Shown one piece after another: positions 56,619 through 64,000 of a DNA stretch of 64,000 nt. Every line of letters begins with the position of its first letter. Position 1 is the stretch's first letter. Origin of the DNA: Paragemmobacter ruber (GTDB taxonomy: Bacteria; Pseudomonadota; Alphaproteobacteria; Rhodobacterales; Rhodobacteraceae); the NCBI RefSeq assembly GCF_009908315.1, contig NZ_JAAATW010000001.1:310001-374000 (forward strand). Reading direction: 5' to 3'. The notes under the pieces are model-generated. The model saw only the letters and a program-made list of their open reading frames with translations. It was not told the DNA's origin and did no database searches. Made by a program: the position numbers and the translations under genes.

Positions 56619-57125
56619 TCACACCTCCGGCAGGTCGCCCAGCAGCGACAGGATGTCCATATCCTCAGGCAGCGTCGCCAGATCCGCCTCGGCCGCGCCA
56701 AGGATGTCGTCCTCATAGACATCGGCCTTCCACAGCTGGAACGTGTCCAGCGAACCGGCCAGCACCGCCTCGCCGCCCTCCGATGCCGTCATCCCGATCT
56801 TCTCGCGCACCTTGGGCGGCAGCACGATCCGCCCGTCATCGTCGATCTCCACCGTCGCCGACAGGGTGATCATGTTGCGCTCAAGAATGCGCCGCTCGCG
56901 CGACCCGATGGGTTTGCGGCGGATCATCGACTCAAGGCGCTGCGCGCCCGCAATCGTGTAACATTCCGCGAATTTCCGGCGCTCGTCGCCATAGACGATC
57001 ACGATGCGCTTGCGGGTGCTGTCAGGGTCTCCGGCCTCCAGAACACGGCGAAAGGCTGCCGGGATCAAGACCCGCGCCTTACCGTCCACCTTCTGGGTGA
57101 ACTCGCCTCTGAACGCCTCCGACAT
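56619..57125 (-). CDS. mraZ: Transcriptional regulator MraZ
   Basis: 168 residues with two SpoVT/AbrB-like repeats: FRGEFTQKVDGKARVLIPAAFRRVLEAGD and LSATVEIDDDGRIVLPPKVREKIGMT. MraZ forms rings and binds tandem TGGGN repeats ahead of its own operon in E. coli. The C-terminus (LATLPEDMDILSLLGDLPEV) is a normal alphaproteobacterial extension. First gene of the dcw cluster; candidate binding sites lie unusually far upstream. Confidence 0.95.
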   Translation of the reverse strand: MSEAFRGEFTQKVDGKARVLIPAAFRRVLEAGDPDSTRKRIVIVYGDERRKFAECYTIAGAQRLESMIRRKPIGSRERRILERNMITLSATVEIDDDGRIVLPPKVREKIGMTASEGGEAVLAGSLDTFQLWKADVYEDDILGAAEADLATLPEDMDILSLLGDLPEV

Positions 57126-59199: not shown

Positions 59200-59338
59200 C
59201 TGTTCTTCTCCTGCACAAGCTTTCGGCAAACCTCGCCATCTTTGCATCACACGGCAAGGTCAAGTTGACCATCTGCTCAGGTTTTCATCGAAACCCCTGA
59301 AATTCATGACATTTTCAAGACACACAGCCATGCGGTTG

Positions 59339-59383
59339 CTGCATGGCAGCATTGCAGACCCCGGCTATTGTGCAGCTGCAGCA
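59339..59383. promoter_or_regulatory. Overlapping TGC-rich palindromes before the DUF1127 gene
   Basis: CTGCATGGCAG (59339-59349, CTGC-N3-GCAG), overlapping GCAGCATTGCAG (59346-59357), and TGCAGCTGCAGCA (59371-59383). The CTGC-N3-GCAG pattern resembles TGC-rich sites bound by PhaR, the polyhydroxyalkanoate-linked regulator. The regulator is inferred from motif resemblance only. Confidence 0.4.
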
Positions 59384-59457
59384 TATGGCCCATGTTTCCG
59401 GTAACAGCGCAACAGAACGCTGTCCGGATATCGTGTAGCAAACTGAGGCTGATCGAA

Positions 59458-59673
59458 ATGGCTTATGTGAACTCTTCCCGCGCCGCGTCTTTCTCGCTGG
59501 CGGATCGCATCTCGGGCTTTGTCGCCCTGACGAAAGCGAACCTTGCCCGCCGCGCCGTGTACAAGCAGACGGTCCGCGAACTGAACGCGTTGACCGATCG
59601 CGAACTGGCCGATCTGGGCATTGCCCGGGCCGACGTCCTCTCCGTGGCCCGCGAAGCGGCCTACGGCAAGTAA
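59458..59673 (+). CDS. ccaF1: DUF1127 small protein (CcaF1-like), leader gene of the CcsR array
   Basis: 71 residues from ATG 59458 (MAYVNSSRAASFSLADRISG). The DUF1127 signature is at the C-terminus: AVYKQTVRELNALTDRELADLGIARADVLSVAREAA. Arg/Lys-rich and probably RNA-binding. In R. sphaeroides the DUF1127 gene RSP_6037 (ccaF1) is co-transcribed with the sRNAs CcsR1-4 that follow it, and its protein affects their processing. The same order here, with the first hairpin 10 bases after the stop, makes this the likely counterpart. I could not identify the heat-shock-type promoter expected upstream. Confidence 0.9.
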   Translation: MAYVNSSRAASFSLADRISGFVALTKANLARRAVYKQTVRELNALTDRELADLGIARADVLSVAREAAYGK

Positions 59674-59683
59674 GTTTCTTGCT

Positions 59684-59751
59684 GGGTCCCACCTCCTCCC
59701 GGGGCCCGTGGCAAAAGCGGCGGTGCTTCTCCTCCTCCCTGGCACCGCCGC
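59684..59751 (+). ncRNA. ccsR1: CcsR unit 1
   Basis: Short hairpin GGGTCCC/GGGGCCC (59685-59707) and long hairpin GCGGCGGTGC/GCACCGCCGC (59717-59751), both with CCTCCTCCC in the loop. Confidence 0.85.
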
Positions 59752-59802
59752 ACTTTGATCCGGAAGCTGCGCTGATGCGTATACTTCCATGACAGATCCG
59801 AA

Positions 59803-59871
59803 GTCCCCCTCCTCCTCCCTGGGGACATGCGGAAAAGCGGCGGTTCCGCTCCTCCTCCCAGGAACCGCCGC
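59803..59871 (+). ncRNA. ccsR2: CcsR unit 2
   Basis: Short hairpin GTCCCC/GGGGAC (59803-59826) and long hairpin GCGGCGGTTCC/GGAACCGCCGC (59837-59871). The 50-base spacer before it can fold on its own (GGAAG with CTTCC). Confidence 0.85.
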
Positions 59872-59908
59872 ACCCTTATTCGGGGCACTTGCCCCAACGG
59901 TGTACGGC

Positions 59909-59978
59909 GGCCCTCCTCCTCCTCCCTGAGGGCCATCGGACCAGCGGCGACCCCACTCCTCCTCCCAGGGGTCGCCGC
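59909..59978 (+). ncRNA. ccsR3: CcsR unit 3
   Basis: Short hairpin GGCCCT/AGGGCC (59909-59934), loop with one extra CCT, and long hairpin GCGGCGACCCC/GGGGTCGCCGC (59944-59978). Confidence 0.85.
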
Positions 59979-60016
59979 GCAAAGTTTCGGGGTGCAAACC
60001 CCACATGCTGTACGAA

Positions 60017-60086
60017 GGGCCCCCTCCTCCTCCCTGGGGCCCGTCGGACCAGCGGCGGCCCCGCTCCTCCTCCCTGGGGTCGCCGC
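60017..60086 (+). ncRNA. ccsR4: CcsR unit 4
   Basis: Short hairpin GGGCCCC/GGGGCCC (60017-60042) and long hairpin starting GCGGCG and ending CGCCGC (60052-60086). The spacing is the same as in unit 3 to within a base. Confidence 0.85.
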
Positions 60087-60100
60087 ACATCATTCGCGCT

Positions 60101-60166
60101 CGGCCTCTCCTCCTCCCTGGCCGGGTCGAACCTGCGGTCGGCTTCCCCTCCTCCCTGGCCGGACCG
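60101..60166 (+). ncRNA. Additional cuckoo-type hairpin pair (possible fifth CcsR)
   Basis: CGGCC/GGCCG (60101-60123) and CGGTC-GGC/GCC-GGACCG (60135-60166), each with CCTCCTCCC in the loop, motifs 38 bases apart. The stems differ from units 1-4, lacking the GCGGCG/CGCCGC form. Confidence 0.72.
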
Positions 60167-60173
60167 TTCGATT

Positions 60174-60209
60174 GCGGCGGCGCCCTCCTCCCTCTGGCGC
60201 CGCCGTTTT
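60174..60209 (+). terminator. Array-ending terminator that carries CCTCCTCCC at its loop edge
   Basis: Stem GCGGCGGCGCC with GGCGCCGCCG, loop CTCCTCCCTCT, followed by TTTT. The motif (60184-60192) starts in the last stem base and fills most of the loop. A Rho-independent terminator that doubles as the eleventh CcsR-type hairpin. Confidence 0.8.
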
Positions 60210-60331
60210 CCATTTCAGGGCAGGAAGAATCGCTCTGCGCGGCAAAAGCCTGCGCCCGCCGCGAAAATAATACAATTATATCAAGCAATTAGGCAGGAAT
60301 GGCCCGCCGCGCGGCGTGGTCAAAAGGCCAC

Positions 60332-62956: not shown

Positions 62957-63038
62957 GCTTTGCACCAGCAAAGCCATGCCTGCATATTTCGCAAAATTTG
63001 CATGTCATGCCGGTCGCCGCCCTTGCGCTGCATTGCAG
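62957..63038. promoter_or_regulatory. Candidate ScfR-type and TGC-rich motifs before pyc
   Basis: GCTTTGC-ACCA-GCAAAGC dyad (62957-62974), TTTCGCAAAATTTGCA (62987-63002, as in the pccB upstream site) and CTGCATTGCAG (63028-63038, CTGC-N3-GCAG). All lie in the 241-base gap between the divergent uvrD and pyc genes, closer to pyc. Regulators inferred by motif only. Confidence 0.5.
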
Positions 63039-63125
63039 CAGCCCTAAGGTGGGTCGATCCGGCTCGGTCCACGCACCCGGCGCCGGGGAAAAGCCCGCCT
63101 GACCTGCCGACATCCGGAGAGACCG

Positions 63126-64000
63126 ATGCCAGAGTTCCGCAAGATCCTCGTCGCCAACCGGGGCGAGATCGCCATCCGCGTGATGCGTGCCGCCAATGAG
63201 ATGGGAAAGAAGACCGTCGCCGTCTTCGCCGAAGAAGACAAGCTCTCCCTCCACCGCTTCAAGGCGGATGAGGCCTACCGCATCGGCGAAGGGCTCTCGC
63301 CCGTGGGGGCCTATCTCTCGATCCCGGAAATCATCCGCGTGGCCAAGATGTCGGGCGCGGATGCGGTGCATCCGGGCTATGGTCTTCTGTCCGAGAACCC
63401 CGATTTCGTCGAGGCCTGCGATCAGGCCGGCATCACCTTCATCGGCCCGCGCGCCGAAACCATGCGCGCCCTGGGCGACAAGGCCTCTGCCCGCCGCGTG
63501 GCGATCGAGGCGGGCGTCCCCGTCATCCCCGCGACCGAGGTGCTGGGCGATGACATGGCGCTGATCAAGAAACAGGCGGCCGAGATCGGCTATCCGCTGA
63601 TGCTCAAGGCATCCTGGGGCGGCGGCGGGCGCGGGATGCGCCCGATCCTGTCGGAAGACGAGCTTGAGGCCAAGGTCCGCGAAGGCCGCCGCGAGGCCGA
63701 GGCCGCCTTCGGCAATGGCGAAGGCTATCTGGAAAAGATGATCCAGCGCGCCCGCCATGTGGAGGTGCAGATCCTTGGCGACAAGCAGGGCAATGTCTGG
63801 CACCTGTGGGAACGGGATTGCACCGTCCAGCGCCGCAACCAGAAGGTGGTCGAGCGCGCCCCCGCCCCCTACCTGACGCAGGCCCAGCGCGAAGAGGTCT
63901 GCGAAATGGCCCGTCGCATCACCGCGCATGTGGAGTATGAATGTGCGGGCACCGTCGAATTCCTGATGGATATGGATGACGGCAAGTTCTACTTCATCGA
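63126..64000 (+). CDS. pyc: Pyruvate carboxylase, N-terminal part (runs off the window)
   Basis: ATP- and biotin-dependent carboxylation of pyruvate to oxaloacetate. 291 codons are visible of about 1,145. Biotin-carboxylase landmarks: RKILVANRGEIAIRVMRAANEMGKKTVAVFAEEDKLSLHRFKADEAYRIG, GYGLLSENPDF, KASWGGGGRGMR and the ARHVEVQILGDKQGNVWHLWERDCTVQRRNQKVVE segment. SLHRFKADEAY and WGGGGRGMR are typical of pyruvate carboxylase rather than acetyl- or propionyl-CoA carboxylases. The carboxyltransferase and biotin domains lie beyond base 64000. Confidence 0.93.
   Translation, partial: MPEFRKILVANRGEIAIRVMRAANEMGKKTVAVFAEEDKLSLHRFKADEAYRIGEGLSPVGAYLSIPEIIRVAKMSGADAVHPGYGLLSENPDFVEACDQAGITFIGPRAETMRALGDKASARRVAIEAGVPVIPATEVLGDDMALIKKQAAEIGYPLMLKASWGGGGRGMRPILSEDELEAKVREGRREAEAAFGNGEGYLEKMIQRARHVEVQILGDKQGNVWHLWERDCTVQRRNQKVVERAPAPYLTQAQREEVCEMARRITAHVEYECAGTVEFLMDMDDGKFYFI

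Follow-up and report, generated by a model that had tools for sequence, protein, structure and literature searches.

In Rhodobacter sphaeroides, the ccaF1-CcsR1-4 operon is reported to have an RpoHI/RpoHII promoter, RNase E processing and a Rho-independent terminator, and its CcsR RNAs are described as induced by stress, processed by RNase E, dependent on Hfq and affected by CcaF1 (PMC10253847, PMC8625941, PMC7866481, PMC8307010). CcaF1 (RSP_6037) is described as an RNA-binding protein of 71 amino acids that takes part in CcsR maturation (PMC10253847), and the CcsR RNAs are reported to target the flhR mRNA (PMC8307010). The cuckoo or alpha-r14 RNAs (NfeR1, SmelA075, SmelA099; RF02344) likewise consist of adjacent hairpins with variable stems around the same loop motif, which has been termed an anti-Shine-Dalgarno sequence and is reported as common to the alpha-r14 RNAs (PMC3927594, PMC10746234). 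Herein we analyzed a locus within a 64,000-nucleotide stretch of Paragemmobacter ruber DNA (the window), which shares with the R. sphaeroides CcsR1-4/CcaF1 system (RF02791) a 71-residue DUF1127 gene, a GC-rich terminator and a tandem series of two-hairpin units whose loops hold CCUCCUCCC, together with a putative RpoH-type promoter. It differs from that system in having four regular units plus a distinct pair with GGCC stems, and in carrying the motif in the terminator loop as well, whereas the alpha-r14-type RNAs in the literature are trans-encoded sRNAs with between two and four hairpins (PMC3927594, PMC10746234). The array adds a member to the known CcsR/cuckoo family; it is well conserved and of ordinary size, and is made up as follows.

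59458-59673, plus strand: ccaF1-like gene, 71 aa, DUF1127 (PF06568, 50.5 bits; relatives)
59679-59714, plus strand: unit 1 short hairpin, motif at 59692 (folds, Rfam match)
59717-59751, plus strand: unit 1 long hairpin, motif at 59731; unit 1 is CcsR1 (folds; Rfam match 59674-59756)
59762-59788, plus strand: motif-free spacer hairpin between units 1 and 2 (minimum-energy fold of 59660-60240)
59797-59833, plus strand: unit 2 short hairpin, motif at 59811 (folds)
59837-59871, plus strand: unit 2 long hairpin, motif at 59851 (folds)
59882-59895, plus strand: motif-free spacer hairpin between units 2 and 3 (same minimum-energy fold)
59905-59938, plus strand: unit 3 short hairpin, motif at 59918 (folds)
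59944-59978, plus strand: unit 3 long hairpin, motif at 59958 (folds)
59989-60002, plus strand: motif-free spacer hairpin between units 3 and 4 (same minimum-energy fold)
60013-60046, plus strand: unit 4 short hairpin, motif at 60026 (folds)
60052-60086, plus strand: unit 4 long hairpin, motif at 60066 (folds)
60093-60130, plus strand: extra pair, hairpin one, motif at 60109 (local folds only, otherwise paired in the whole-stretch fold; relatives)
60134-60167, plus strand: extra pair, hairpin two, motif at 60147 (folds, relatives)
60174-60209, plus strand: terminator-like hairpin, motif at 60184 mostly in the loop, followed by TTTT (folds, relatives)

The array stands directly 3' of the DUF1127 gene, as CcsR RNAs do, and the folds give each unit two stem-loops with CCUCCUCCC in the loops. 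The Rfam CcsR1 covariance model (RF02791) matched unit 1 with 100.1 bits against a cut-off of 65.3, a check that supports the CcsR/cuckoo identity put forward in the preliminary description, just as the PF06568 match supports the DUF1127 neighbour. Units 2, 3 and 4 scored 56.1, 56.2 and 55.2 bits, all below the cut-off, the terminator hairpin scored 18.4 bits (E 0.63), the covariance-model search gave no match of RF02791 to the extra 3' pair, and the best alpha-r14 (RF02344) score was 48.8 bits, under its cut-off of 58.8. A one-to-one correspondence of the four pairs with CcsR1-4, as first supposed, is not supported, given that only unit 1 exceeds the Rfam cut-off, that units 2-4 stay at 55-56 bits and that later units are duplicated within several lineages. 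CcaF1-like matches were obtained in 178 of 198 family genomes. For CcsR1, 121 of 149 genomes gave a match at E≤0.001, of which only 9 lie above the cut-off, with 1 of 14 control genomes also matching; in the array loci of genus and family that we examined, the array sits behind the DUF1127 gene. On the minus strand at 56619-57125 there is a frame that by eye resembles mraZ, the first gene of a division and cell wall cluster, with its start 2.3 kb from ccaF1; the long mraZ 5' leader of R. sphaeroides is reported to give rise to the sRNA UpsM (PMC5089854).

A search of the whole window retrieved 11 exact copies of CCTCCTCCC, all on the plus strand within 59692-60192 and starting at the motif positions listed above, with none on the minus strand and none in the rest of the window on either strand; 100 dinucleotide shuffles of the window contained 1.36 copies on average and four at most. 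All 11 motifs lie in a hairpin loop in local folds, with nine of nine bases unpaired in ten of them and eight of nine in the eleventh. The single minimum-energy fold of 59660-60240 places 10 of the 11 in a hairpin loop, the ninth (60109) being largely base-paired to a stretch that lies 3' of the terminator, and contains three motif-free hairpins that separate the four regular pairs. The hairpins are far from chance, since planting the motif at 2000 random positions of the G+C-rich window produced a comparable hairpin in 500 cases (25%), against all 11 in the array. Motif count and local folds bear out the eleven consecutive anti-Shine-Dalgarno stem-loops behind the DUF1127 gene, and the recomputed short/long spacing is the one given before (39-40 bases inside pairs, pair starts 119, 107 and 108 apart). 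A coding repeat was ruled out because only one of the ten distances between successive motifs is divisible by three; the open frames across the array are mechanical. The eleventh hairpin, directly followed by TTTT at 60206-60209, was absent from the output of a terminator scan, presumably because that scan allows loops of 3-8 only. At another locus, a lone strong hairpin, GACCCCGGGG-CTCCTCCTC-CCCCGGGGTC (L011:1491-1519, G000:C4:160148), has an anti-Shine-Dalgarno-like loop and sits between two frames, one resembling by eye the gene of a solute-binding protein and the other that of a permease.

Selection on the stems had been proposed from compensatory changes, which were set as a test beforehand. 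Within the genus the test took long hairpins anchored only by a left GCGGCG and the motif, covering 26 of 163 motifs and 11 distinct sequences. Their five inner pairs were paired in 98%, compared with a mean of 78% and a maximum of 91% after right arms had been swapped, while in other genera (57 distinct sequences, with more variable loop length) pairing was 78%, and 63% on average and 69% at most with swapped arms. Counting pairs over the 11 sequences gave 99.2% of cells paired, ten of them changed on both sides, and none of 500 shuffles was as high; three pairs carry a double change, a count that 29 of 500 shuffles also attained, and no variation occurs in six of the eleven stem pairs. Stem alignments that were slid pair in at most 74%. 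Arm swaps and pair count thus agree on the compensatory changes.

Paired motifs were found in 17 of 19 genomes of the genus, read as 18 loci of 17 genomes with one array split across two contigs. The genus arrays hold 6-15 exact motifs, some being cut by contig ends, and one contig-end fragment holds four; 62 further loci of the family set hold 1-17, and among 102 family loci that include distant DUF1127 genes, 30 are without any motif. Because genus arrays span 6-15 and family loci 1-17 motifs, the eleven of the window are mid-range, and the special expansion initially claimed for this array is rejected. A C. sphaeroides 2.4.1-type assembly (G069), so called because a plasmid stretch (L187) is 100% identical to C. 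sphaeroides 2.4.1 plasmids while another stretch had no match, has 14 motifs, and four or five pairs occur in the other four genomes of its genus, one of which has four on each of two contigs. Unlike the array here, the G069 array (L130, G069:C4:691.7-692.5 kb) consists of seven CcsR-like pairs, five of them nearly identical, with a changed terminator loop. Strain, assembly or naming may explain these seven pairs against the published four, CcsR1-4.

In a comparison of units across 17 genus loci, with the counts made by eye, the closest unit to unit 1 was another species' unit 1 in all 17, and in 16 the closest to unit 2 was likewise a unit 2. From the third unit onward there are 44 units, and 10 of them were closest to a unit of their own genome. 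The own-genome duplicates in G016 (units 3-5) and G013 (units 3-4) are identical across the compared stretch, and the best match of the window's last GGCC pair is the last pair of G010 (0.93). On these sequence comparisons, relatives carry counterparts of unit 1, of unit 2 and of the extra 3' pair, and the middle units have been duplicated within several species. The extra pair together with the GGCGGCGCC terminator was recognised by eye in 9 of the 17 genus arrays (G000, 003, 006, 007, 008, 010, 011, 016 and 018); the motif in the terminator loop is intact in five of these nine and changed in four, and G008 and G016 also have an altered first loop in the extra pair. Of 76 last motif hairpins, 26 are followed by TTTT, as are 17 of 567 inner ones, and motif-bearing terminators therefore recur. 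Of the extra pair and the motif-bearing terminator, put forward as exceeding a four-RNA picture with a putative fifth RNA or stable 3' fragment, the pair is supported by its counterparts in relatives; the terminator is not special, given that TTTT ends 26 of 76 arrays and that the loop motif is changed in four of nine in the genus. What emerges for the change of CcsR arrays is a conserved start and 3' end, a duplicating middle and a terminator hairpin with the same motif as the array, and four units are not a family constant.

We consider it very probable that the locus is a ccaF1-CcsR operon whose stress transcript is cut into two-hairpin anti-Shine-Dalgarno RNAs, with copy number serving as dosage; transcription, processing and targets are here taken by analogy from the R. 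sphaeroides work. Stress would act through an RpoHI/RpoHII-type promoter to yield a single transcript comprising the CcaF1 mRNA and a 3' UTR with five hairpin pairs and the terminator hairpin, and RNase E, with CcaF1, would cut between pairs to release short two-hairpin RNAs. The loop sequence resembles the anti-Shine-Dalgarno end of the ribosome and would pair with GGAGG-type ribosome-binding sites, lowering the translation of selected mRNAs, and tandem duplication of middle units would change copy number and hence, as we infer, dosage. In a further, putative element of the mechanism, drawn from comparative sequence, PhaR at about -60 and over the -35 would repress the operon until PHB granules draw it away. 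Perfect GGGAGGAGG occurs 2-14 bases before an ATG six times in the genome, versus three times for the reversed control, and two of the six sites have plausible long frames (L196, 351 aa; L197, 282 aa); a target list built on exact GGGAGGAGG before ATG, hardly above its reversed control, yielded nothing firm and was set aside.

The position of the array in the 3' UTR would also suit hairpins that mainly protect or stabilise the 3' end of the ccaF1 mRNA or slow termination, with the loop as a binding site for a protein such as CcaF1 or Hfq instead of an antisense element. The RNA binding of R. sphaeroides CcaF1 and its part in CcsR maturation (PMC10253847) fit such a role, as does the recurrence of one loop motif in all units with loop targets here that are only putative, but the reported targeting of flhR mRNA (PMC8307010) and the designation of the motif as an anti-Shine-Dalgarno sequence common to alpha-r14 RNAs (PMC3927594, PMC10746234) argue against it, and we regard it as unlikely. 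Tandem G+C-rich palindromes whose units duplicate could also be a cluster of dispersed repeats or palindromic elements devoid of RNA function; however, 8 of the genome's 11 copies of the long motif CTCCTCCTCCC are at the array locus, the array stands behind a DUF1127 gene in relatives, and the stems show compensatory changes and an Rfam match. This reading is highly improbable, and a dispersed repeat was rejected on the single-locus concentration of the long motif.

For the ccaF1-CcsR operon, the most interesting part of the locus is its promoter, which lies outside the span covered by the preliminary description. Alignment revealed a conserved block at 59326-59397, common to the upstream regions of 17 genus loci and C. 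sphaeroides, with the following elements.

59327-59347, no strand: conserved inverted repeat GCCATGC..GCATGGC overlapping the operator candidate, kept in the PhaR-less genus g150 (alignment)
59339-59349, no strand: PhaR-type operator candidate CTGCATGGCAG, fitting the published CTGCNNNGCAG (alignment, consensus fit, relatives)
59368-59383, plus strand: TTGTGCAGCTGCAGCA, with a putative RpoH-type -35 TTG (59368-59370) inside a second TGCA-rich conserved element (alignment, rules reported in PMC3441632)
59389-59397, plus strand: putative RpoHI/RpoHII-type -10 region CCCATGTTT (alignment, rules reported in PMC3441632)

If the TTG is set at -36 to -34, position -9 is the T at 59395; both are conserved as sequence, and transcription would start near 59404; the placement of TTG and of T at -9 is that reported for RpoHI promoters (PMC3441632). 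A sigma-70 promoter scan returned no match, and a strict long promoter pattern, matched by only 13 of 198 family genomes, was too strict to be useful. The operator candidate begins 29 bases before the putative RpoH-type -35. The R. sphaeroides PhaR binding sequence is reported as 5'-CTGCNNNGCAG-3', and PhaR is reported to repress the sRNA MmgR in S. meliloti (PMC12542648). The locus has in common with the PhaR regulons described for these species (phasin genes; sRNA mmgR) a CTGCNNNGCAG-type site near the -35, and with S. meliloti mmgR an sRNA as candidate PhaR target (PMC12542648).

Across 71 upstream regions, in which five genomes appear twice (L052/L125, L056/L127, L063/L128, L068/L135 and L073/L136) and which omit L082 (start unknown) and L147 (no array), CTGCNNNGCAG is exact in 44 and has at most one mismatch in 67, versus 0.2 and 5.1 in shuffles, and mostly begins 28-29 bases before TTGTGCA. 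L074 and L137 are without the site (two mismatches), although L137's genome carries it at a second locus. The genome of the array also contains CTGCAGCGCAG, some 54 bases upstream of a phasin-like frame that stands between phaC and phaR (L222; phaC and the phasin-like gene were identified by eye and from their position, PhaR by TIGR01848 at 159.6 bits). The PhaR-type motif alone is not evidence, because one of its best other matches lies between convergent genes (L219). Two further sites were seen in passing: a PhaR-like GCGCTGCATTGCAGCA at 63025-63040, about 85 bases before a frame that starts near 63126 and is matched by pyruvate carboxylase models over its first 471 residues, and the palindrome ATGCTGCATTGCAGCA (L220:1501-1525, G000:C2:452808) directly before a ParA/MipZ-type ATPase gene.

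Of 198 family genomes, 191 have PhaR; among genomes at least 97% complete, the count is 387 of 395. Five of the eight genomes of this second set that lack PhaR have a DUF1127 match, and the best locus of each carries an array, of 10, 8, 2, 3 and 3 motifs, with no PhaR-type site at up to one mismatch within 300 bases and no TTGTGCANNTGCAGCA within three mismatches. PhaR-bearing controls comprised 38 loci, taken in the order of the CcaF1-match list while skipping second loci of used genomes and the PhaR-negative G116, and 20 more from lower positions, chosen as counterparts to more distant proteins. The 27 array loci among the former have the site in 26 and the second element in 27, and the 10 among the latter have them in 10 and 9, so that each occurs in 36 of 37 control array loci, versus a site in none of the five PhaR-less ones. 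PhaR-bearing L250 is without the site (two mismatches), some one-mismatch matches lie off the usual place (e.g., L263, L264 and L300), and the CcaF1 proteins of PhaR-less G021 and G383 are more distant than those of most controls. Two incomplete assemblies, G116 (84% complete) and G183 (71%), keep the site with no PhaR match, which we put down to missing sequence; the PhaR-negative G051 (74%) is outside the site count. A CcaF1 tree of 71 columns, built from the 56 of 68 proteins with at least two motifs at their locus, has the site in 50 of 51 PhaR-bearing rows and in none of five PhaR-less rows. These five need three changes, at least two of them on well supported branches, and represent two or three lineages; a single PhaR-less clade is not rejected (p 0.339), and a sign test has only two independent pairs. 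The co-occurrence of PhaR and site is a strong correlation in the sequences compared, with few independent events and short of proof.

Another regulator, for example a LysR-type protein, could bind the conserved block, the TGC elements resembling PhaR sites by chance, a possibility to which we give rather less than an even chance. It draws on the PhaR operator being a candidate, and on similar sites being common at DUF1127 loci that have no array: where a locus has one motif or none, the site was present, exact or with a single mismatch, in 16 of 33 (omitting L119), 8 of 11 and 7 of 10 in three locus sets, a lower rate, and it may therefore be the DUF1127 gene, not the sRNAs, that the operator serves. 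In the PhaR-less genus g150 the inverted repeat and TTGTG are retained and the TGC elements are gone; the persistence of the repeat means that at least one more factor may act at the promoter. The PhaR-like TGC elements are, however, gone in all five PhaR-less array genomes and present in 36 of 37 controls, and the site copy in the same genome, flanked by phaC and by the phasin-like gene next to phaR, likewise speaks against a chance resemblance.

Among the matches listed, no paper links PhaR with CcsR, CcaF1 or DUF1127 or names ccaF1-CcsR as a PhaR target. The element looks like a PhaR operator, and PhaR control of ccaF1-CcsR is a new testable hypothesis. PhaR is a carbon-storage regulator, a repressor that polyhydroxybutyrate (PHB) granules pull away from DNA. 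We put at about even the chance that the operon is a conserved PhaR target across much of the Rhodobacteraceae, its sRNA supply gated by carbon storage together with RpoH sigma factors, and that lineages losing PhaR lost the operator. If true, a widespread stress sRNA operon would be wired to carbon storage, and the reported effects of CcsR on C1 metabolism and pyruvate dehydrogenase would be tied to polymer status.
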